A stretch of DNA of 10,326 nt from Candidatus Methanocorpusculum equi (GTDB lineage: Archaea > Halobacteriota > Methanomicrobia > Methanomicrobiales > Methanocorpusculaceae). Both the position numbers and the translations under genes were made by a program. Positions 1 through 10,326 of this stretch are shown here, piece after piece. The notes beneath the pieces are model-generated. The model was not told where the DNA came from. It worked only from the letters and a program-made list of their open reading frames with translations, and did no database searches. The stretch is from the NCBI GenBank assembly GCA_018065685.1, contig JAGHSU010000118.1:1-10326 (forward strand), written 5' to 3'. Position 1 is the first letter of the stretch. The number at the start of each line of letters is the position of its first letter.

Positions 1-150
1 ATATTATTGTAAAACTTATTTACAAAAACTTTTCAAACGTGCCGGACAAACCGGTTAATACGTACACACCACGGGAGGATAAACTCCCGTACGTTCCGCA
101 CCATCAGGAGACAACCATTAATCTCTGAAACACCAAATAATTATATAACT
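1..150 (+). promoter_or_regulatory. Promoter/leader region of the dehydrogenase-polymerase unit
   Basis: No gene is visible in these bases. The first ~37 bases are A/T-rich, with a weak TATA-like stretch (CTTATTTAC, 15-23) that could give a leader of roughly 100 bases. The strongest TATA-like match (TTATATAA, 141-148) lies directly against the ATG at 151, too close to drive a transcript that includes that start. An 8-bp palindrome AACCGGTT is at 49-56 and a hairpin at 71-90. Two purine-rich Shine-Dalgarno-like stretches (73-79 and 106-110) have no usable start codon at normal spacing. The promoter assignment is inference from base composition. Confidence 0.4.
71..90 (+). other. Perfect 7-bp hairpin in the leader
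   Basis: ACGGGAG (71-77) pairs exactly with CTCCCGT (84-90) around a six-base loop GATAAA. The left arm and loop contain GGGAGGAT, a good Shine-Dalgarno match that the stem would hide. An alternative 6-bp pairing, ACGTAC (60-65) with GTACGT (89-94), shares bases 89-90 with this stem, so the two folds compete. No T-run follows on either strand, so it does not look like a terminator. A role in leader regulation or as a protein-binding operator is speculation. Confidence 0.5.
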
Positions 151-1002
151 ATGACTACAGTTGCAGCGTTCGGTATGGGCAGAATCGGAGGAGAAGCCGC
201 ATACCTGTCCGCAGTTTCCGGATTCGCCGATGAACTTGTTCTCTATGATATCAATACAGAACTGCTCCGTGCACAAAAGCTCGATATACTCCATGCAAAA
301 GAGATTCCGGTATCGACCAGACCCTCTGACATAAAAGATGCCGACTACTGCATATTTTCCGCAGGATACTCACGTTCACCGAACGTAAAAACCCGCGCGG
401 ACCTCTTTGACAAAAACCTTCCGATTGCAAAGGAAGCGGCAGGCATCATGAAAGGATTTCCGGGAAAACTCATCGTCTTAACCAACCCGATGGATGTTTT
501 TACCTGGTACTTTGCAAAACATGCCGGCTTTGACGAATCACAGGTTGTAGGATTCGGCGGCCTCCTGGACTCACGAAGATTCACCCTTGCGCTGCACAGC
601 ATGGGAATTAATGAAACAGGAATCGTCATCGGAGAACACGGAGAAAATCAGGTCCCGCTCTTCTCAGGCCTCTCCGTTGACGTACCTGAATCCGTCCGTG
701 AGGAGGTGCTCCTTGGTCTGCGCGGCTCATCCATGCCTGTCATCAAAGGAAAAGGAGGGACAGTTTTCGGCCCCGCATACCATATCGCACACATGCTTGA
801 AGAGATTGAAAACGGACGCGAAATTGTCTGTTCCCTTCCGATGAACGGAGCGTACGGAATCGACGGCTGTGCGCTTGGCATCCCCGCAAAAGTAACGAAA
901 GACGGCGCAAAAATAAATGAATCCCTAAAACTTGACGACTGGGAATCAGAAAAACTCAGGTCCGCGGCAGAGTTTCTTACCGGACTCTGCCGGAGAGTCT
1001 AA
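151..1002 (+). CDS. mdh: Malate/lactate dehydrogenase family protein (probable malate dehydrogenase)
   Basis: This is an NAD(P)-dependent 2-hydroxyacid dehydrogenase of the LDH/MDH superfamily, probably interconverting malate and oxaloacetate in the cytoplasm. The Rossmann glycine motif is G8-M-G10-R-I-G13 and the acidic D33 at the end of strand two suggests NAD(H) preference. N112 lies in VLTNPMD. The catalytic pair is D140 and R143 in LLDSRRF with H163 in GEHGENQVP. In the substrate loop R75 occupies the specificity position (Arg in malate, Gln in lactate enzymes) and R82 follows, though the loop is one residue longer than in E. coli Mdh. At 283 residues it is shorter than the usual 305-330. 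The ATG at 151 is needed to keep the first glycine of the motif; no Shine-Dalgarno precedes it. The polymerase gene follows with no spacer. Family is certain; the exact substrate is inferred. Confidence 0.88.
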   Translation: MTTVAAFGMGRIGGEAAYLSAVSGFADELVLYDINTELLRAQKLDILHAKEIPVSTRPSDIKDADYCIFSAGYSRSPNVKTRADLFDKNLPIAKEAAGIMKGFPGKLIVLTNPMDVFTWYFAKHAGFDESQVVGFGGLLDSRRFTLALHSMGINETGIVIGEHGENQVPLFSGLSVDVPESVREEVLLGLRGSSMPVIKGKGGTVFGPAYHIAHMLEEIENGREIVCSLPMNGAYGIDGCALGIPAKVTKDGAKINESLKLDDWESEKLRSAAEFLTGLCRRV

Positions 1003-3393
1003 ATGGAAATCAGCGTAAATCAGGCAGAGTACTCAAACACTCCTGCAGGCCCTGTAGTTCATATCTTTGGAAGAGAAACAGACGGCACCCTTCATGAAGT
1101 GCTGATTACAGACTTTAAGCCGTATTTCTGGGTACGTGAATCCGAAGCAAAGCGTGAGCATCCTGACTGCATTACCGTCTCAGATGAACAGGCGGTATCC
1201 ATTAAAGGAGAAAGGGTACGGAAACTCTACACGGATAAACCTACAGACGTCCGCGCGGTTCGTGAAAACTACCATCACTTTGAAGCAGACATTCCCTTTG
1301 CCTCCCGCTTTTTAATTGACGTGGGAATTACCGGAGGGATCTCATGTCCATACGATCTCTGCAGCTGTACCGAAGTGGCCCCGGCACACGTCCCCTCAAA
1401 GAGCAGAGTCTGCACCTGTGATATCGAATGCGAAATGAAAAACGGTTCATCTCCGGAAGGAAACCGGATCACAGCCATCACCTGCCATGATTCATTCAAC
1501 GACAGATATACTACATTCCTCCTCAATGGAACGGTCCCGCTTCCGGAAAACCGCACGCCGCTTCCGAACGGATGCTTTGACACAGAGGTCCACACCATAA
1601 CCGTCTGCGGTACGGAACGTGACCTGCTAAACGCGTTTATCGCATATCTGAAAGAGACAGACCCGGATATTCTTACCGGATGGAACTTCGTCGATTTCGA
1701 TGCACCATACATCCTGAACCGGGCAAAACACCATAAAATCCCCATTGATGCCTTTGCACGGCTTCCGGGACAAACTGAGCGGAATGCGATGCGCGGGAGA
1801 GTCATCTTCGACCTGCTCGCTGCATACAAAAAGATGCAGGGGTCGCAGAAAGAGTCGTTCCGCCTTGATGCTGTTGCGCAGGATGAACTCGGAGAGCATA
1901 AACTTCCTCATGAAGAGTCATTTGACGACCTCTGGAAGTATCACCCGCTCCGGTTTGTCGAGTACAACTTTAAGGATGTGGAGCTCTGTGTTAAAATCAA
2001 CCGGAAAATCAGTATCGTCGACTTCTTCCAGGAGGTTTCCCGGTATGTTGGCTGTCCGCTTGACAAAACACTGAACTCCTCGAACGTGGTAGATACCTTT
2101 GTTCTCAGAAAAGCTCACGGACGCTATGTTCTTCCCTCAAAAGGGATGGAAACGAAAGCACAGGAGTTTGAAGGAGCAACCGTGTTCTCCCCCTCCAGGG
2201 GAATCTGTGAAAATGTCATTGTGCTCGACTTAAAGTCCCTCTATCCAATGGCGATGATGACCTTAAACGCCTCCCAGGAAACAAAGTCTCCTGCCGGCGA
2301 AATTCATGCACCAAACGGCGTCAGATTTAATAAATCCCCCGACGGTCTTACAAGAATCATCATCGGAGAACTCTTAAACGAACGTGACAGCAAAAAGAAA
2401 CTGAGAAACACCTTCCCCTACGGTTCGGAGGAGTATGAACTCTATGATATGCAGCAGAACGTCATCAAGGTCATTATGAACTCCTACTACGGGGTGTCAG
2501 GTTTTTCCCGGTTCCGGCTCTATGATGTGGAAATCGGTTCCGCCGTGACCTCTGTCGGACGCGCCATCATTGCCCATACGAAAAAGATTATCACAAGCCA
2601 CGGCTACGAGGTCATTTACGGGGATACGGATTCATGTTTCGTTCAGCTGCCCCCGGTCTCCCGTGAAGAGACGATGGAGATTGCCCGTGCCCTCGAAAAG
2701 GAGTTAAACGAAAGCTACAGCGGATTTTCAAAGGAAACGCTCGGGGCGGATACAAACTACTTCTCGATTAAGTTTGAAAAGATTTACCGCCGCTTTTTCC
2801 AGGGAGGAATCAAAAAGCGTTATGCGGGACACCTCGTCTGGAAAGAGGGGCAGGATGTTGACAAAATCGATATCGCAGGCCTGGAGTCTAAGCGGTCCGA
2901 CTCCTCGCAGATGACACGGGAAGCGCTCTCCACAATTCTCGAAATGATTTTAAAGGGCGGCGGAAAGCCCGCAGTAAAAGAGTATCTCTCGGGTGTACTG
3001 ACCGATTTCCGCGCGGGCCGCTGCCCTCTGGAAAAAGCAGGCATCCCCGGAGGATTAAACAAAGCGCTGGATGATTATGATCATCTCGATGCTCATGGAA
3101 GGGGTGCGCGTTATGCAAATGAGTATTTCCACACGGATATCACCCGCGGAAGCAAACCAAAGCGGCTGTATATCAAAAACAGTTATGACCTGGAGCACTA
3201 TCCGAAAACGGACGTCATCTGCTTTGAGTATCCCGAACAGATTCCGGAAGGAGTGTTTGAAATCGACTGGGAAACCATGTGCGAAAAAACGCTGAAGACA
3301 CCAATTTCCCGTATCTTTGAAGCTCTCGGATGGGACTGGGATGAAATGGACCCGAAGGGTGTCAAAAAGACCACATTGGATATGTTTTTTTAA
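1003..3393 (+). CDS. polB: Family-B replicative DNA polymerase with 3'-5' proofreading exonuclease
   Basis: This 796-residue protein is an archaeal family-B DNA polymerase that copies DNA and removes mismatches. The N-terminal part (about 1-135) resembles the Pyrococcus enzyme (DIPFASRFLID near 96-106). Exonuclease motifs are D140-I-E142 (Exo I), N228 to D233 (Exo II) and Y321-x3-D325 (Exo III). Polymerase motif A is D409 to P415 (DLKSLYP), motif B is K489-x3-N493-S-Y-Y-G497 and motif C is Y539-G-D-T-D-S544, giving catalytic D409, D541 and D543; KKRYAG follows at 604-609. The last eight residues, KTTLDMFF, match a PCNA-binding PIP box except for Lys in place of the first Gln. All catalytic residues are present and length is normal. 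The ATG directly abuts the dehydrogenase stop, with GGAG at 992-995 as ribosome site, so the two genes are probably co-transcribed. Six cysteines cluster at 115-143. Confidence 0.96.
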   Translation: MEISVNQAEYSNTPAGPVVHIFGRETDGTLHEVLITDFKPYFWVRESEAKREHPDCITVSDEQAVSIKGERVRKLYTDKPTDVRAVRENYHHFEADIPFASRFLIDVGITGGISCPYDLCSCTEVAPAHVPSKSRVCTCDIECEMKNGSSPEGNRITAITCHDSFNDRYTTFLLNGTVPLPENRTPLPNGCFDTEVHTITVCGTERDLLNAFIAYLKETDPDILTGWNFVDFDAPYILNRAKHHKIPIDAFARLPGQTERNAMRGRVIFDLLAAYKKMQGSQKESFRLDAVAQDELGEHKLPHEESFDDLWKYHPLRFVEYNFKDVELCVKINRKISIVDFFQEVSRYVGCPLDKTLNSSNVVDTFVLRKAHGRYVLPSKGMETKAQEFEGATVFSPSRGICENVIVLDLKSLYPMAMMTLNASQETKSPAGEIHAPNGVRFNKSPDGLTRIIIGELLNERDSKKKLRNTFPYGSEEYELYDMQQNVIKVIMNSYYGVSGFSRFRLYDVEIGSAVTSVGRAIIAHTKKIITSHGYEVIYGDTDSCFVQLPPVSREETMEIARALEKELNESYSGFSKETLGADTNYFSIKFEKIYRRFFQGGIKKRYAGHLVWKEGQDVDKIDIAGLESKRSDSSQMTREALSTILEMILKGGGKPAVKEYLSGVLTDFRAGRCPLEKAGIPGGLNKALDDYDHLDAHGRGARYANEYFHTDITRGSKPKRLYIKNSYDLEHYPKTDVICFEYPEQIPEGVFEIDWETMCEKTLKTPISRIFEALGWDWDEMDPKGVKKTTLDMFF

Positions 3394-3426
3394 AAGATAC
3401 AGCACTTCTCTTTTCCCCTCATTTTC
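3385..3426 (+). terminator. Probable poly-T terminator after polB
   Basis: Seven T residues (3385-3391) fall in the last Phe-Phe codons and stop of polB, and a pyrimidine tract with two TTTT runs follows up to 3426. Archaeal RNA polymerase ends transcription at such U-rich runs without needing a hairpin, and no strong hairpin is visible here. The next gene has its own promoter signals, which fits termination in this interval. Confidence 0.5.
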
Positions 3427-3445
3427 CCTATATTATGATAACGTT

Positions 3446-3466
3446 CCGGATATTTTTGCCGGGATA
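3446..3466 (+). repeat. Imperfect direct repeat upstream of the ferritin TATA box
   Basis: CCGGATA (3446-3452) and CCGGGATA (3459-3466) start 13 bases apart and end just before the TATA-like element. A short odd palindrome TTATGATAA lies further upstream at 3433-3441. The position suits a regulator-binding site, perhaps metal-responsive as is common for ferritins, but the repeats are short and may be chance. Confidence 0.25.
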
Positions 3467-3472
3467 CAGATG

Positions 3473-3481
3473 TGTATATTA
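3473..3481 (+). promoter_or_regulatory. TATA-like promoter element of the ferritin gene
   Basis: TGTATATTA is the best archaeal TATA-box candidate between polB and ferritin. Transcription would be expected to start about 25 bases downstream, near 3503, giving a leader of about 30 bases that holds a clear Shine-Dalgarno site. Confidence 0.45.
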
Positions 3482-3523
3482 TCCAAAAGACAATAATACT
3501 GTGCATAAAACACAATGCAAATC

Positions 3524-3529
3524 AGGTGA
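3524..3529 (+). promoter_or_regulatory. Shine-Dalgarno site that fixes the ferritin start at 3534
   Basis: AGGTGA complements the 3' end of archaeal 16S rRNA and ends four bases before the ATG at 3534. It shows that the native start is 3534 and not the later in-frame ATG at 3633, which has no such site close upstream. That makes the TAG at 3555-3557 an interruption inside the gene. Confidence 0.7.
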
Positions 3530-3533
3530 AATC

Positions 3534-4046
3534 ATGTTAGACAAAAAAGTAGCCTAGCTCTTAAACCAGCAGATTAACAAGGAGTTCTACTCCGCATACC
3601 TCTACCTCGACATCGCAAACTATTACGAAAGCATGAACCTCGACGGTTTTGCAAACTGGTTCAGAATCCAGGCTCAGGAAGAACGTGACCATGCGATGCT
3701 GATGTATCAGTATCTCCACAACAACAACGCAAAAGTCACCCTGGACACCATCAGCAAACAGGATAAGGTGTTTTCGGACAAAGTATCTCCGCTCAAGGCA
3801 GCACTGGAGCACGAAATCTTTGTAACCTCTCTCATCAACAGAATCTATGCAGCAGCAGATGAGAAGAAGGACTTCAGGACGATGCAGTTCCTCGACTGGT
3901 TCGTAAAAGAACAGGGAGAAGAGGAGAAAAGTGCAATGGACTTAATTGCAAAGATGGAACTTTTCGGAGATGATGCAAAAAGCCTGTACCTGGTAAACTC
4001 TGAGCTTGGAGCCCGCACATACAATCCTCCGTCACTCGTATTATAA
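3534..4046 (+). pseudogene. ftn: Non-haem ferritin, frame interrupted by TAG at codon 8
   Basis: Ferritins oxidise Fe(II) and store iron inside a 24-subunit cytoplasmic shell. Read from the ATG at 3534 the frame gives 170 codons, a normal ferritin length, but codon 8 (3555-3557) is TAG. Every ferroxidase ligand falls at E. coli FtnA numbering: E17, E50 and H53 (AQEERDH), E94, Q127 and E130. The next in-frame ATG is codon 34 (3633), which leaves an intact 137-residue reading frame; a product from there would lose most of helix A and E17 and has no Shine-Dalgarno site. No other damage is visible, so this may be a very recent nonsense mutation, a sequencing error (GAG or AAG to TAG would do), or a codon that is read through. 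I call it a pseudogene because of the stop; the family assignment is firm. It has its own promoter and terminator and converges on secY. Confidence 0.85.
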
Positions 4047-4055
4047 TCAAAAACG

Positions 4056-4084
4056 CTGCAGAGAGATCTGCAGTTTCTTCTTTT
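4056..4084 (+). terminator. Hairpin plus T-tract terminator of the ferritin gene
   Basis: CTGCAGA (4056-4062) and TCTGCAG (4067-4073) form a perfect 7-bp stem closed by GAGA, a GNRA tetraloop, followed directly by TTTCTTCTTTT (4074-4084). It lies ten bases past the ferritin stop codon. The form is that of an intrinsic terminator; the T-tract alone may be enough in archaea. Confidence 0.6.
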
Positions 4085-4178
4085 AACAGCATCCACAGTT
4101 AAACAGGCAGTTTCTGCACCTGATAAAGACAGGGGTTCATACAGCTGGATTAAACAAAACCAGGCAGAACAAGTCCGC

Positions 4179-4190
4179 AAAAAAAAGGGG
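4179..4190 (-). terminator. Poly-T terminator of the ribosomal protein/secY operon
   Basis: On the - strand CCCC is followed by eight T residues, starting 16 bases beyond the secY stop codon. This is a typical archaeal poly-U terminator. The stretch between it and the ferritin terminator (4085-4178) shows no gene, tRNA or strong structure. Confidence 0.55.
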
Positions 4191-4206
4191 TTGAGGTTCA
4201 AAACGC

Positions 4207-5652
4207 TTATTCTTTGTTGAAGAATCCGCGCATGAACGGGTACATCTCCATCATCTGCTCGTTTGCAATCTGTTCGTACAGACGGTAGAGGATAGAGACG
4301 GTAAGCAGAAGTCCGGTACCTCCGACGAATCCGATAATACCAAGCATGTTGGCGAGGACCGAGAGAACACCGATGAACACTCCGCCGATGACAGTTACTC
4401 TTGGAATGTAACGGTCGAGGTAGCGTTCCAGAACCGCAGGGCTTCTCCGGTATCCCGGAATCTGCATTCCCGAGTTCTGAATCTGACGTGCGACATGTTT
4501 CGAATCAAGACCTGCAGTCTTAACCCAGAATATTGCGAAGAGCGCGCCGCCGAGCACCATCACAATGATATCAATGACGATTCTGATGATAACTTCCCAT
4601 GGTGCATGACCTGCACCGGTGAAAGTAGGAAGCCACCACATCCAGTCCTGCGGCTGATTAATCGGTGCGATATACCACATAAGACCGTTCATCGGCGTTG
4701 AACCGTTGAACTCTCCAAGCACTTTGATACCGCATGATGAAAGAATCATACCAATCATCTGGACGTTTGCCTGCAGAACACGGACTAAGATCATCGGAAG
4801 AACACTTGCGTAAACAAGTTTTACCGGGAATCTGGAACGTGCACCGCGGACATTCGCATGTGCAAGCGGAATTTCAATTCTGGTTGACTCTACATAGACA
4901 ATCAGGAAGAAGAGACCCACAGTAGTCACCAATGCCAACAGCTGGAGACCAAAGTAATCCATAAAGTTCTGTCCCGACCCGATTACCTGGAAGAGACGCG
5001 GGAAGAATCCTGACGCAAACCCGTCGGTTGAACCCGATGCCGACCAGTTGAAGAAACCGTTAATCAGTCCCTGAGCCACCCCTGCAACGATGAAGAGACC
5101 CACACCGGACCCGATACCCCATTTGGAAACCACCTCATCCATGAACATGATGAGAACACCTCCAAGACATATCTGGAGGAAGATGATGAACATAACAAGT
5201 CCGGAGTTTCCGCCAAAGAGGGCAGTAACACTCGGATCAGGGACCATCCACCCGGTAAGTACGTTCGGCAGGGCTTCTAAGATAATCATCACAAAGATGA
5301 GGAGCTTCTGCAAACCCATATAGAGAACCTGACCGCGCTGGTCAGATGTGTTAATCTTAATCAGATCAGCACCGCGGAGTAACTGCAGAACGATTGAAGC
5401 AGTGACGATCGGACCAATACCTAAATGAACAATAGTACCCTGGGCACCGGCAAGTAATGCACGGTAGTACTCAAAAAGGTCCACAGAGGTATCTGCAAGT
5501 CCGAACATTGGAATATTCGTCAATATGAAATAGACGAGCAGCACGACGGCAGTCCACATCAGTTTGTTCTTGAAGTGGACATGACCCTCCGGCGGCTTAA
5601 CTGCTGGCATTCTTGACAGCAGAGGTTCCATCCGATCTAACACTTTTCCCAT
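4207..5652 (-). CDS. secY: Protein translocase subunit SecY (Sec61 alpha homologue)
   Basis: SecY is the pore subunit of the Sec channel that moves proteins through or into the cytoplasmic membrane, working with SecE and SecG/Sec61beta and the ribosome. The 481-residue length and about ten hydrophobic segments fit: TM1 near 31-49, TM2 near 76-92, then roughly 112-135, 150-172, 180-200, 235-255, 280-303, 353-377, 417-437 and 440-457. The archaeal N-terminal signature PEGHVHFKNKLMW is at 21-33. The basic cytoplasmic loop between TM6 and TM7 (near 268-280, VRGARSRFPVKLV) and the one before TM9 (near 388-418) are the ribosome/partner contact loops in the family. The start matches archaeal homologues (LDRMEPLLSRMPAVK). 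It is the last gene of the operon, 16 bases after uL15, with AGGT as a ribosome site. Confidence 0.97.
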   Translation of the reverse strand: MGKVLDRMEPLLSRMPAVKPPEGHVHFKNKLMWTAVVLLVYFILTNIPMFGLADTSVDLFEYYRALLAGAQGTIVHLGIGPIVTASIVLQLLRGADLIKINTSDQRGQVLYMGLQKLLIFVMIILEALPNVLTGWMVPDPSVTALFGGNSGLVMFIIFLQICLGGVLIMFMDEVVSKWGIGSGVGLFIVAGVAQGLINGFFNWSASGSTDGFASGFFPRLFQVIGSGQNFMDYFGLQLLALVTTVGLFFLIVYVESTRIEIPLAHANVRGARSRFPVKLVYASVLPMILVRVLQANVQMIGMILSSCGIKVLGEFNGSTPMNGLMWYIAPINQPQDWMWWLPTFTGAGHAPWEVIIRIVIDIIVMVLGGALFAIFWVKTAGLDSKHVARQIQNSGMQIPGYRRSPAVLERYLDRYIPRVTVIGGVFIGVLSVLANMLGIIGFVGGTGLLLTVSILYRLYEQIANEQMMEMYPFMRGFFNKE

Positions 5653-5668
5653 GAGTTGTACCTAAAAT

Positions 5669-6094
5669 TTATTCTAAGGAGAGAGCCTGTCCGCCCTTCT
5701 CCTCAATTTTTGCGACTGCGCTGGCAGAAAATGCCTCAGCGGTGATGGCAATCTTGTGGGTTACCTGACCGCCGCCTAAGACTTTTTCAACCCCTATGCT
5801 TGCAGCATCAATCTTTACAGTGTCCCCTTCCTGGGAGGCGATACCTCTGGCAATCAGTTCGGGTACAAGCTGGTCTATATCTCCGATGTCCATGACATCC
5901 CAGGAGTATGACGTCTTGCAGACGAATCCGTGTTTACCTTCGGTTCTTCCGAGGAAGTAGAAACGGGTAAAGTTGTGGTCACGCCATCCGGCTGCTCCGC
6001 GGCCTCCGCGGTTTCCGGAACCACGGCGGTTTTTGTGGGTTCCTCCACCGCATGTGCGGGAACCCCGGAACTTTGAACGCTTATTTACTGGCAT
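5669..6094 (-). CDS. rpl15: 50S ribosomal protein L15 (uL15)
   Basis: uL15 is an early-assembling protein of the large ribosomal subunit. The 141-residue protein begins with a Gly/Arg/Lys-rich extension (about 4-36, with GGGTHKNRRGSGNRGGRG) that threads into rRNA, followed by an archaeal-type globular part and the C-terminal region around KVLGGGQVTHKIAITAEAFS, typical of the family. Length is usual for archaea. The start is five bases after the uL30 stop, and GAGGT at the end of the uL30 gene is the ribosome site. secY follows, the common order in both bacteria and archaea. Confidence 0.96.
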   Translation of the reverse strand: MPVNKRSKFRGSRTCGGGTHKNRRGSGNRGGRGAAGWRDHNFTRFYFLGRTEGKHGFVCKTSYSWDVMDIGDIDQLVPELIARGIASQEGDTVKIDAASIGVEKVLGGGQVTHKIAITAEAFSASAVAKIEEKGGQALSLE

Positions 6095-6099
6095 GTTAA

Positions 6100-6561
6100 T
6101 TACCTCATCTTGATTAAGAGACTGTTAATCTCCGGGCCATAGTAACCAAGAGCTCCGCCCTGGTTAAATGTACGCTTTGTACTCTTATAACCTTTTCTTG
6201 GCGGGCGCATACGAAGGACCGGCTTTAACTCCGGAACATCCTTCATACGAATCTCACCGGAAACGATTGCTGCTGCGAGTTCTGCGATAGACGCATATTT
6301 GGTGACAGACTTCACATACTCGTCGGTAAGCGGCTTGTTTGCGGTGAGTCTTCCGCGGGTTTCAAGAATTGTCGCAAGGGTTTCTGCATCAATCTCACCA
6401 AATGCAACATAGTCCTTAACCTTTCTGACCATTCCGAGGTATTCGGGGGTTTCTGGAACTAAGACACAGTGGTTGATGTGGTGAAGACGGAGCATCTTTA
6501 AGGTTTCCTTGATTTCACGGCGGGTATTTACAATACCTCTGACCTGAACTAATGCGTACAT
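6100..6561 (-). CDS. rpl30: 50S ribosomal protein L30 (uL30), archaeal long form
   Basis: uL30 is a large-subunit rRNA-binding protein. The first ~60 residues ([20 protein letters not shown] onward, with LRLHHINHCVLVPETPEYLG) are the compact core shared with bacterial L30. Residues from about 60 to 153 are the extension found in archaeal and eukaryal (L7) forms, ending with a Gly/Tyr-rich stretch. Length of 153 is usual for archaea. Its ATG overlaps the uS5 stop by one base (TAATG), and GGAGGGA lies just upstream, so translation is probably coupled to uS5. Confidence 0.95.
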   Translation of the reverse strand: MYALVQVRGIVNTRREIKETLKMLRLHHINHCVLVPETPEYLGMVRKVKDYVAFGEIDAETLATILETRGRLTANKPLTDEYVKSVTKYASIAELAAAIVSGEIRMKDVPELKPVLRMRPPRKGYKSTKRTFNQGGALGYYGPEINSLLIKMR

Positions 6562-7181
6562 TACTGCTTCCCTCCTACACGGATAAGATTTGTTTCACGA
6601 AGCGCATTGAAGGTTGCCTTTGCGAAGTTAAGAGTGGTTCTAGTCTGACCGCTGGTGGTGACCCACACATCCTGGATTCCTGCAAGAGCAAGAACCTTCT
6701 TGCCGACATCTCCGGTCACAAGACCGATTCCCTTCGGGGCCGGCTTTAAGGTAACCGTGACGGAACCTGCTTTTCCGGAAACCTGCCATGGAACAGAGTG
6801 CTTCTGTCCGCAGCCGCATTCCCAGGAACCGCAGCCTCTCTTGACTTTGACAATAGAGAGTTTTGCGGCGGTGATTGCCTTCTTAATCGCAGTTCCGACC
6901 TGAACATCTCTACCCTGACCAAAACCGATGTATCCGTTCTTGTTGCCGATTACAACGACAGCTCTGAACTTAATACGGCGTCCGGAGTCAGTCATACGCT
7001 GCATCATATCAATGCAGAGAACTTCATCAGCAAGATCGGGGAGCATTGCATCAACAATGCCTTCCTCTTTGATTGGGTATCCGGAGGCAAGAACTTCATC
7101 GAAGTTTGCAAACTCTCCGGCTAAGACCTTCTTTCCAAGACCGGTTACCGGAACCCATGCTTCCTCTTGTTCGTAAGCCAT
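6561..7181 (-). CDS. rps5: 30S ribosomal protein S5 (uS5)
   Basis: uS5 sits near the decoding site of the small subunit and affects accuracy and mRNA handling. The 206-residue protein has the N-terminal S5 double-stranded-RNA-binding fold (about 45-115, with [18 protein letters not shown] at 73-90) and the C-terminal S5 domain ([15 protein letters not shown] near 147-160). Between them is the archaeal/eukaryal Cys-rich stretch [17 protein letters not shown] (C117, C122, C124, H128), absent from bacterial S5. The N-terminal 40 residues are an archaeal extension. AAGGAG serves as ribosome site and the gap to uL18 is one base. Confidence 0.96.
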
Positions 7182-7182
7182 A

Positions 7183-7707
7183 TTACTTCAGCTCCTTCAT
7201 GATTGCTGCTTTAACAGCCTCAACATTTGCTGCTAAATCCTTGCTGTTCTCGTCGTATTCGGCAATAGTCTTGCCGCTGCAGCGGTCATCGTCCGGGAGA
7301 ATTTCTTCTCCGACAGGAACGTCGAATCCTGCTTCAACTGCTCCTTTAACTGCTGCAAACACACGTGCTCCTGCAGAGGCAACCTGCAGACCAATATCTG
7401 CAATAGCCTCTTCGTATCCCGCATTCTTTGCACGGACTGCAAAGAGCAGGCCGGAGAGGTATGCGGCAGGGGTGTTTCCAAGGTATCCCTTGTATCCGTA
7501 GTTTACCAGGTCTTTACTGTTGACCTGAACTAAGGTGTAATCGCCTTCCATCGCTGCAGCAACAAGCTGAATGATGATGTGGCGGTTGGTCTTTCTGATG
7601 ACCATGCGGTTTTTGCCGGAGACAATTAAACGCTGGCGCTGGTAGTAGTCAGTTTTGCCTTCCCGGCGTCTTCTGAACTGAACGAAATATCTTCCATTAA
7701 CTGCCAT
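7183..7707 (-). CDS. rpl18: 50S ribosomal protein L18 (uL18)
   Basis: uL18 binds 5S rRNA and helps seat it on the large subunit together with uL5. The 174-residue sequence starts with a basic RNA-binding region ([20 protein letters not shown]), followed by the L18 core with strands around [16 protein letters not shown] and the archaeal motif [18 protein letters not shown]. The acidic/Ala-rich C-terminal helix (about 150-174) is common in archaeal members. It starts two bases after the eL19 stop with GGAGGA as ribosome site. Length and ends match the archaeal family. Confidence 0.96.
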
Positions 7708-7709
7708 GT

Positions 7710-8162
7710 TTAGTTCCTCCGTGAGGTGACAAGCTCAATCTGAGTCTTTAAGTGAGCAACGTTACGGAACTGACCGCCTGCTGCTCTTCTGTAGAGTCTG
7801 CGGTACTCAGTAGGAGTGATAGCTCCTGCATCACGCTGGGTGCGAAGTTCGCGGCGCTGTGCACGAATCTTTTTAACCCACTGTTCCTTTGACGGTGTGC
7901 GTGCTCCTTTTGCTCCGCTTCTCTTACCCTGGCCCTTTCCGTGACCGTAAGAGCGCTTTGCAGTCCGTGCACGGACACGTCCACGGGATATTCCTTTCTT
8001 CTGGTGAGTGGAGATTGCTCCGGACTCAATCAGACCGCGGATATCCTCACGGGACATTGCACTCTGAACATCAGCGAGTTTTTCGGGGTCAATCCAGACA
8101 CGGTTTTCACCGCAGTCTAAGATTTTTGCTGCGAGTTTGCGCTGTGCAGAAAGATTACTCAT
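7710..8162 (-). CDS. rpl19e: 50S ribosomal protein L19e (eL19)
   Basis: eL19 is a large-subunit protein found in archaea and eukaryotes but not bacteria. The 150-residue protein shows the conserved N-terminal part AAKILDCGENRVWIDPE (11-27), an IRGLIESG helix, a central Gly/Arg/Lys-rich rRNA-binding stretch (about 60-90, with SYGHGKGQGKRSGAKGAR) and a basic C-terminal helix (WVKKIRAQRRELRTQR). The start codon overlaps the eL32 stop in the eight-base run ATGAGTAA, and GGGGGTGA, a strong ribosome site, lies inside the end of the eL32 gene, so the two are probably translationally coupled. Confidence 0.96.
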   Translation of the reverse strand: MSNLSAQRKLAAKILDCGENRVWIDPEKLADVQSAMSREDIRGLIESGAISTHQKKGISRGRVRARTAKRSYGHGKGQGKRSGAKGARTPSKEQWVKKIRAQRRELRTQRDAGAITPTEYRRLYRRAAGGQFRNVAHLKTQIELVTSRRN

Positions 8163-8676
8163 CCTTCTTCACCCCCTTTCTTGCCTTCTTTGCCGCTTTC
8201 GGGGCTTCGGTCTTTGCCTCTTCAGCGGCTGCCTCTTCAGTCTTCGGTGCTTCAACGGCAGGTGCTGCTGCAGGGGCTGCAACCTTTGCTACCTTCGGTT
8301 TCTGCACTTTGACGTTTAAGACCTTGATTCCGAGTTCTGCTGCCTTTGCCTGAATAGCATTGCGCTTTGCAAAACCAACAGAAGCTCCGATACGGACTGC
8401 TGTTGTTGCGGGATCAATGTTTTCAAGTTCTGCAACGGTGAATACTCTCTCCTCGCGGTATCCGCTCGGGTGGAACCCGCGGACTGCCTTCGGGGAACCA
8501 AATCCTGCCTCCGGGTGTTCGCCTTTTGCCAGGTAGTCCTTTCTCTGCTTGGAGTGAAGTCCCATCGGTGCTCTCCAGGAGTCCTTTAAGGTAACCTTGG
8601 AGTGGAGGCACTGACGGTTAAATGTTGCCTTCTTTGCCGTTCTGGCTCTCAGAAGTCTCTTAATTTCAGATGCCAT
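8155..8676 (-). CDS. rpl32e: 50S ribosomal protein L32e (eL32) with a charged C-terminal tail
   Basis: eL32 is a large-subunit protein restricted to archaea and eukaryotes. The conserved core occupies about residues 15-123, with PEAGFGSPKAVRGFHPSGY near 55-73 and a C-terminal helix ending in ELGIKVLNV (114-122). After it comes a low-complexity tail (about 124-173) of Ala, Lys, Glu and Pro. The family normally ends close to the ELGI-VLN segment, so the tail is an addition. The open frame continues upstream into the uL6 gene, but ATG at 8676 gives the expected N-terminus (MASEIKRLLR), lies one base after the uL6 stop and has AGAGGT upstream. The total is 173 residues. The tail is Glu-rich at 147-157 and Lys/Arg-rich at the end. 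Confidence 0.94.
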   Translation of the reverse strand: MASEIKRLLRARTAKKATFNRQCLHSKVTLKDSWRAPMGLHSKQRKDYLAKGEHPEAGFGSPKAVRGFHPSGYREERVFTVAELENIDPATTAVRIGASVGFAKRNAIQAKAAELGIKVLNVKVQKPKVAKVAAPAAAPAVEAPKTEEAAAEEAKTEAPKAAKKARKGVKKDE

Positions 8677-8677
8677 G

Positions 8678-9202
8678 TTAGTTACCTCTGCTGGTGATGT
8701 AAATACCATCCTGGAAAACACGCGGGTCTCTGTTTCTGACCTTGCATGCCTGTTCAATGTTTGCTGCAGTATTTCCGACATCCTCACGGCTGATTCCGGT
8801 TAAGATAACCTCATCACCCTGGATTTTGACTTTGACGCCGTCGGAGATAAGTGCATAACGTGCCTGTTTTTCGCCGAGGAAGTTTGCGATTTCAACTCTG
8901 TTTCCGGCAACCTTTGCCTGAATAGGGAAGTGGTTGAAGACAATCTTCATGTGGTACTCGTATCCTTCAGTAACACCCTTGCTCATAACGTGCAGGAGTG
9001 CCTTGTAGGTTCCGACTAATGCAAGAACACTGCGTCTGGTAGACTCGGTTGCGATGGTGACCTCACCGTTTTCCACTGTGAAGGCAATCATCGGGTGGTA
9101 CATTCTGCGGACAAGTTCGCCCTTGGAACCTTTGACGACGAAGTTGTCACCGTCGCGGGTAATTGTCACTCCTGCCGGAATGGTAAATGTTTCATGGTGC
9201 AT
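8678..9202 (-). CDS. rpl6: 50S ribosomal protein L6 (uL6)
   Basis: uL6 lies near the factor-binding site of the large subunit and contacts the sarcin-ricin region. The 174-residue protein has two repeated L6 folds. The first starts at IPAGVTITRDGDNFVVKGSKGEL. The second carries YEYHMKIVFNHFPI and the archaeal motif VEIANFLGEKQARYA, followed by VKVKIQGDEVILTGISREDVG. The C-terminus KVRNRDPRVFQDGIYI is typical of archaeal members. AAGGAG is the ribosome site and uS8 ends 12 bases upstream. Confidence 0.96.
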   Translation of the reverse strand: MHHETFTIPAGVTITRDGDNFVVKGSKGELVRRMYHPMIAFTVENGEVTIATESTRRSVLALVGTYKALLHVMSKGVTEGYEYHMKIVFNHFPIQAKVAGNRVEIANFLGEKQARYALISDGVKVKIQGDEVILTGISREDVGNTAANIEQACKVRNRDPRVFQDGIYITSRGN

Positions 9203-9214
9203 TTTTCCAACTCC

Positions 9215-9607
9215 TTAGAAGATATAGGCTAAGAGTTCTCCGCCAATGCCGAGTTTACGAGCCTGTTTGTGGGACATGACACCCTTGGAGGTTGTCAGAA
9301 TGATAATTCCGAATCCCTTACCCGGAAGGTATCTTGTTTCCCAGGACTCGAGGTCCTCGACTTTCACTGAGAAACGCGGGGTAATAACACCGCATTTGTT
9401 GATTGCACCGGATAAGACAATATCGTACTGACCGCCTCTTCCGTCTTCAATCTTGGTGAACTCAGTGATGTATTCATATTCCTGCATAACTTTAAGCATA
9501 TCTCCAAAGAGACGGCTTGCCGGCTCAACGGTCACTTTAAGTTTACCGGTGTCGCCGGCATTCTTAATGGCGCTCATTGCGTCTGCGATTGGATTCTGTT
9601 GTGTCAT
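9215..9607 (-). CDS. rps8: 30S ribosomal protein S8 (uS8)
   Basis: uS8 binds the central domain of 16S rRNA early in small-subunit assembly; in bacteria it also represses the spc operon by binding its mRNA. The 130-residue protein begins with the family motif NPIADAMSAIKNA and ends with the highly conserved TSKGVMSHKQARKLGIGG (105-122). Length is usual for archaea. GGAG precedes the start. A second ATG a few bases upstream is out of frame and does not compete for the correct protein. Autoregulation is known for bacteria; nothing in this window shows it here. Confidence 0.96.
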   Translation of the reverse strand: MTQQNPIADAMSAIKNAGDTGKLKVTVEPASRLFGDMLKVMQEYEYITEFTKIEDGRGGQYDIVLSGAINKCGVITPRFSVKVEDLESWETRYLPGKGFGIIILTTSKGVMSHKQARKLGIGGELLAYIF

Positions 9608-9621
9608 TTTCCATCGTCTCC

Positions 9622-9792
9622 TTAGTTCATCTTCTTAAAGCCCATGGTGGGTGCCCATTCGCGGAAGCACTGACGACAGAGGTAAATGCCGTATCTGCGC
9701 ACAAGTCCCTGCTTGCGTCCGCAAAGCTGACACACGTTTGCACCGCGGCCAAACTTTTTCTGCTGGACTTTGCCGTTGTCTTTTGCTGCCAT
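9622..9792 (-). CDS. rps14: 30S ribosomal protein S14, zinc-binding type (uS14)
   Basis: uS14 is a small-subunit head protein. The 56-residue protein carries C21-x2-C24 and C39-x2-C42 ([20 protein letters not shown]), the four-cysteine zinc site of the short, Zn-binding form, and ends with the usual [13 protein letters not shown]. The frame is open a few codons further up to another ATG at 9807, but that start lies within uL5. The ATG at 9792 follows the uL5 stop by one base, has GAGGTGGAG upstream and gives a normal archaeal N-terminus. Confidence 0.95.
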
Positions 9793-9793
9793 T

Positions 9794-10309
9794 TTACTCC
9801 ACCTCAATGCCGTAGGTTTCTGTTACGAACTTCATTGACTCTTCGCGGGTCACGTGAAGTTTCGTGTTGAACTTCTTCTGCTGAATCTTTCTGCGTGCGG
9901 TTCTTGTCCCTTTCTTTTCGACAACAACCATGATATCCATACCGTAGATACCAATCTTCGGATCATATGCCTGACCCGGGAAGTCGGTGTGTTCTTCGAT
10001 ACCGAATGCGAAGTTTCCGGTTGCATCAAACTGACGCTGGTGTAAGACGTGCTCGATAGAGTAGGTCTTCAGAGCCATAGTGAGGAAGTTCTGTGCCTTC
10101 TCACCGCGAAGAGTTACTTTGCAGCCAATCGGCTGACCGCGGCGGATACCGAATGCAGGAAGTGTGTTCTTTGCATACGAACGAAGCGGCTTGGAGCCTT
10201 CAGTCAGGGCAGACATGATGTTTTCGGCATTTACCAGGCGTTCACCTGCTTCGCCGACACCCATGTGCACAACAACTTTTGCAACATAGGGAGTCTTCAT
10301 GTCAGTCAT
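9794..10309 (-). CDS. rpl5: 50S ribosomal protein L5 (uL5)
   Basis: uL5 binds 5S rRNA and the P-site tRNA region of the large subunit. The 171-residue protein shows [18 protein letters not shown] near 12-29, the archaeal motif [20 protein letters not shown] (about 53-72), [11 protein letters not shown] and the conserved [15 protein letters not shown]. The start at 10309 overlaps the TGA of the upstream gene as ATGA and has GGGGTG seven bases away, which favours it over the ATG three codons later. All expected conserved segments are present. Confidence 0.95.
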
Positions 10310-10326
10310 GCTTCAACACCCCAGTT
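10306..10326 (-). CDS. rps4e: Last codons of the gene upstream of uL5, probably ribosomal protein S4e (partial)
   Basis: Only six codons and a TGA stop are in the window (N-W-G-V-E-A), running off the right edge. The TGA overlaps the uL5 start as ATGA. The peptide alone cannot identify the gene; S4e is inferred because it normally precedes uL5 in the archaeal spc cluster. The reading frame itself is supported only by the stop/start overlap and that gene order. Confidence 0.45.
   Translation of the reverse strand, partial: NWGVEA

Follow-up and report, generated by a model that had tools for sequence, protein, structure and literature searches.

An otherwise intact ferritin gene with an in-frame TAG at codon 8 in a draft Methanocorpusculum genome

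A ferritin gene of Candidatus Methanocorpusculum equi carries an in-frame TAG at codon 8 while the remainder of the gene is intact, and with a probability of about 0.54 we regard this gene as a newborn pseudogene that originated from a recent change of a sense codon to TAG. The window, i.e., the whole stretch of 10,326 nucleotides that was analysed, is contig C28 of a genome (G000) of 1,154,005 bases in 170 contigs that is 70.8% complete. A sister genome, G019, aligns to the window over positions 99-10326 with 95.3% identity. The features of the locus are the following:

1003..3393, plus strand: family B DNA polymerase gene (polB), intact, upstream of the ferritin gene; the same neighbour is present in G019
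3524..3529, plus strand: AGGTGA, Shine-Dalgarno-like, kept in G019 (sequence, alignment)
3534..4046, plus strand: gene of a non-haem ferritin with 170 codons and a terminal TAA, broken by the TAG at codon 8 (frame, Pfam match, residues, PDB alignment)
3555..3557, plus strand: premature TAG, apparently private, GAG in G019 (sequence and comparison with relatives)
3633..4046, plus strand: remnant open reading frame from the next in-frame start, 137 amino acids, lacking E17, with a Pfam match from profile position 29
4207..5652, minus strand: SecY gene, intact, downstream of the ferritin gene and on the opposite strand; the same neighbour is present in G019

The ferritin frame starts with the ATG at 3534, ends with the TAA at 4044-4046 and contains the TAG at 3555-3557 as sole internal stop, just as a previous reading of the sequence alone had described it. 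In line with the Shine-Dalgarno support claimed there for this ATG, the Shine-Dalgarno-like AGGTGA lies four bases ahead of it and is also found in the sister; a scan for sigma-70-type promoters was set aside as inapplicable to archaea. The 162 amino acids after the TAG match the Pfam family Ferritin (PF00210) with an E-value of 1.3e-35 and 122.9 bits compared to a gathering score of 24.5, and therefore the frame is not a product of chance. All six ferroxidase residues, E17, E50, H53, E94, Q127 and E130, are kept and so are Y24, E49, E126 and E129. Their reported agreement with the numbering of E. coli FtnA was confirmed with PDB entry 1eum ("FERRITIN 1"), which we take to be this protein: its chain residues 10-160 align to query residues 2-152, i.e., from codon 10 onward, resulting in the same numbering. 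Compared to the FtnA type (PF00210; NCBIfam NF007638), in which the six residues are equally numbered, the window ferritin differs in that the full-length open frame is interrupted by the stop at codon 8, and the part following the stop reaches 83.2 bits, which is under the NF007638 cut-off of 178. The gene is thus a ferritin gene by family, but broken as written.

The sister carries an open orthologue on contig C48, flanked by polB and secY as in G000, and its codon 8 is GAG, one base away from TAG, as had been anticipated for this position. Codon 8 encodes Asp or Ala in G012, G013, G014, G015 and G017, the G017 copy being cut by a contig end, and Ala in the frameshifted copy of G011, so that none of the seven close genus copies (G019, G011-G015, G017) has a stop at this position; this comparison covers the close-type copies, with the seven distant ferritins of 35-36% identity left out. 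The best 80 of at least 568 confirmed database relatives (L053-L132) are ferritins that come from gut Clostridia/Oscillospiraceae as well as from Methanocorpusculum and show 70-77% identity to the window ferritin over 162 residues. In contrast to the TAG of the window ferritin, all 80 have a sense codon 8, namely E in 41, A in 23, D in eight, Q in three and N, S, F, R and K in one each. This set overlaps the genus set, L054 and L055 being the records behind G012 and G013. The TAG thus appears to be private to G000 among the relatives examined, and GAG, as judged from one sister only, is probably the ancestral codon. Neither polB, secY nor mdh was found near the ferritin gene in the other loci inspected (L003-L007, L054, L055, L138), for which stretches of 1.5 to 5 kb per side at best were available.

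The TAG had been called the only defect of the gene, which is correct in so far as it is the sole stop, but it is not the sole oddity. The G000 ferritin shows 18 rare positions, i.e., states shared by no more than 5% of the remaining relatives, with the stop counted, amongst them P76Q (P in 84/84) and L154V (L in 82/82), while the median of the relatives is three. The number is high, yet within the range of the relatives, as these reach up to 20 and are mostly bacterial; the sister ferritin has 25 and the G017 ferritin only five. G000 and G019 differ at 20 of the 170 ferritin positions (stop included). Between the sisters the ferritin has a dN/dS of 0.185 compared to 0 to 0.105 in 11 other window genes (the L32e and S14 genes were left out) and a median of 0.078 across 85 gene pairs; by dN, computed with a short 5' extension included, it ranks 11th of the 85. 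The gene is therefore faster evolving than its window neighbours in both sisters, and apart from the stop it is under purifying selection, with dN/dS well below 1. The faster evolution in both sisters weakens the earlier argument that a gene decaying in the ordinary way should show further scars. In the G019 ferritin (L135, 7309-7818) a cluster of changes lies in codons 142-153, at the otherwise nearly invariant sites 142, 143, 144, 147, 149 and 153.

If the stop is real, the course of events would be simple. A recent change, given the GAG of the sister most simply G to T, would have created the TAG in an accessory ferritin gene that the genus holds patchily. Ribosomes starting at 3534 would halt after seven residues, and the next in-frame start, at 3633, would yield a piece of 137 amino acids without E17; because of both, the TAG allele is expected to give no working ferritin, and the gene would be a newborn pseudogene. 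The base would then be real in the organism and the product lost.

The serious competitor, to which we assign somewhat less than an even chance, is an assembly or sequencing error in the consensus, in which case the codon at 3555 would be a sense codon in the organism itself and its ferritin a normal, functional one. The comparison of 82 coding-like open reading frames of G019 with G000 speaks for it, as it revealed single-base frameshifts in three conserved genes of G000 and a fourth difference in a hydrolase gene:

L207 (G000, C22), 1310-2012: frameshifted aIF-2 beta
L207 (G000, C22), 6328-7905: frameshifted SepRS (N-terminus)
L207 (G000, C22), about 5232-6306: shifted C-terminus of a hydrolase
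L215 (G000, C85), 5450-5778: frameshifted AtpH (ATP synthase subunit H)

For the hydrolase gene end, the fourth difference, the shifted genome could be either G000 or G019, whereas for SepRS the G019 version is shared by four other genus copies; three of the four differences (aIF-2 beta, SepRS, hydrolase) lie on the single contig C22. A further gene among the six flagged as broken in G000 (L216) was dismissed, its indel lying ahead of the conserved aligned part and pointing to an over-long start call. The reverse comparison left no clear frameshift in G019 on inspection: of the five G019 genes flagged as broken, four differ from G000 in where they start or end, and the fifth is the SepRS frameshift of G000, which this comparison meets again. 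Since a methanogen that is alive would be expected to have functional aIF-2 beta and AtpH, the G000 assembly, split as it is into many contigs, very probably holds consensus errors. The errors observed are indels, not substitutions, and none lies in the window contig, where each of the 13 other genes aligns to G019 in one piece. In six window genes that, to judge from their sequences, presumably encode ribosomal proteins, the private changes amount to four nonsynonymous and ten synonymous ones in G000 and two and eight in G019, which is no clear excess of nonsynonymous changes, and none of the 14 polarised G000 changes is G-to-T or C-to-A. As the 13 genes align whole and these private changes resemble those of G019, the window contig is free of heavy substitution noise; its error rate looks low, although it need not be zero. 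Among the 85 gene pairs only the ferritin has a stop in the conserved coding part, and it is found in one of the faster-evolving genes. The frameshifts in conserved genes and the selection that otherwise acts on the ferritin, with its ferroxidase residues kept, argue against a real break. The fast evolution of the ferritin and the lack of a match to it in 6 of 12 near-complete genus genomes favour one, and on balance a real nonsense allele is slightly ahead of a consensus error.

Two further explanations assume that a ferritin product is made despite the TAG. Amber read-through with pyrrolysine occurs in Methanosarcina. The present case resembles the read-through described there (PMC5563889) in that an in-frame TAG lies in a methanogen gene; it differs in that G000 has no Pyl genes over the cut-off, the TAG is not conserved and the gene encodes a ferritin and not a methylamine methyltransferase. 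That a pyrrolysine or suppressor tRNA reads the TAG and full-length ferritin results is very unlikely, although the downstream frame is intact and under purifying selection, a decoding gene could be missing from the incomplete assembly, and TAG is used less than any other terminator (it closes 4 of 81 matched open reading frames of the coding-like kind and 19 of 262 mechanical ones of at least 100 amino acids in sampled G000 DNA). PylS_Nterm, searched in G000 alone of the genus, has no match there, and among 14 control genomes it matched only in Methanosarcina acetivorans. PylS_Cterm and PylB stay below the cut-off in all 25 genus genomes, including the 12 near-complete ones, while one of the 14 controls exceeded it in each search; the weak PylS_Cterm matches seen in 25/25 genus genomes are far under the cut-off and were rejected, the best one in G000 (C22) falling within a gene that corresponds to SepRS in G019. 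A pattern resembling tRNA-Pyl, a single pattern used without positive control, is absent from the 25 genus genomes. None of the 32 tRNAs found with RF00005 in the 70.8%-complete G000 has a CUA anticodon, and ARAGORN, which overlooks some tRNAs (the one for Trp went undetected in G023), reported no CUA tRNA in 40 sampled G000 contigs or at the 50 tRNA places of G023, a single-contig relative. Release factor aRF1 is present. Five of the 19 TAG-ended open reading frames could be matched in sampled G019 DNA: in three the terminal TAG is shared, in identical position, by G000 and G019, one has a TAA nearby and one, which with 72% identity is perhaps not an orthologue, has no stop there. A transporter-like G000 frame with two in-frame stops, the first being TAG (L208), was rejected as support for recoding, as both stops precede the conserved part in what was taken as a non-coding 5' extension. 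Together with the lack of a TAG at codon 8 in the close genus copies and the 80 database relatives, this makes decoding of the ferritin TAG unlikely; a slight uncertainty comes from the 29% of the genome that the assembly lacks. The specific proposal that the Methanocorpusculum lineage decodes the ferritin UAG by a suppressor tRNA encoded in this missing part is still less probable, no sign of it being seen in the 25 genus genomes. Least credible of all is that translation restarts downstream and that the short ferritin-like piece is functional. The 137-residue remnant does match Pfam Ferritin (E-value of 1.6e-25), but it lacks E17, there is no in-frame ATG, GTG or TTG between the TAG and 3633, and a stop at codon 8 is seen in 0 of the 80 best-matching relatives. 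Of the explanations offered by the sequence-only reading, the young nonsense mutation and the sequencing error thus stay and hold nearly all the weight, while the suppressor or pyrrolysine tRNA found no support.

A match to the window ferritin was found in 15 of 25 genus genomes, of which eight are of the close type and seven have 35-36% identity. Any match to PF00210, strong or weak, is present in 12/12 near-complete genus genomes, and in G000 no such match was found besides the interrupted gene, for which reason its loss may matter to the cell. The ferritin copy on contig C11 of G011 (L007) is shifted in frame by two bases near codon 50, and this shift may in turn be an error. Among the matches listed, the most similar ferritins from outside the genus come from gut Clostridia, and two named records with close ferritins belong to Methanocorpusculum isolates obtained from the cecum and colon of goats. 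A tree built from 87 rows (84 different) unites the genus copies in a single supported branch (99/98), which also holds one row labelled Bacillota, L053. An exchange of the ferritin gene between gut bacteria and the Methanocorpusculum group is plausible, and no firmer reading is given as the bootstrap is unsettled and the rows were picked by similarity to the window ferritin. L053 itself, from a contig labelled Bacillota bacterium, reflects either gene exchange or a mislabelled bin.

If the explanation is an ordinary one, the finding is of little import by itself and adds one further interrupted gene in a draft genome. It also calls for caution: claims of recoding that are based on lone in-frame TAGs in draft genomes first need sister genomes and an estimate of the error rate. 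For this host-associated group of methanogens, ferritin emerges as a gene that is patchily held, possibly exchanged and sometimes broken.
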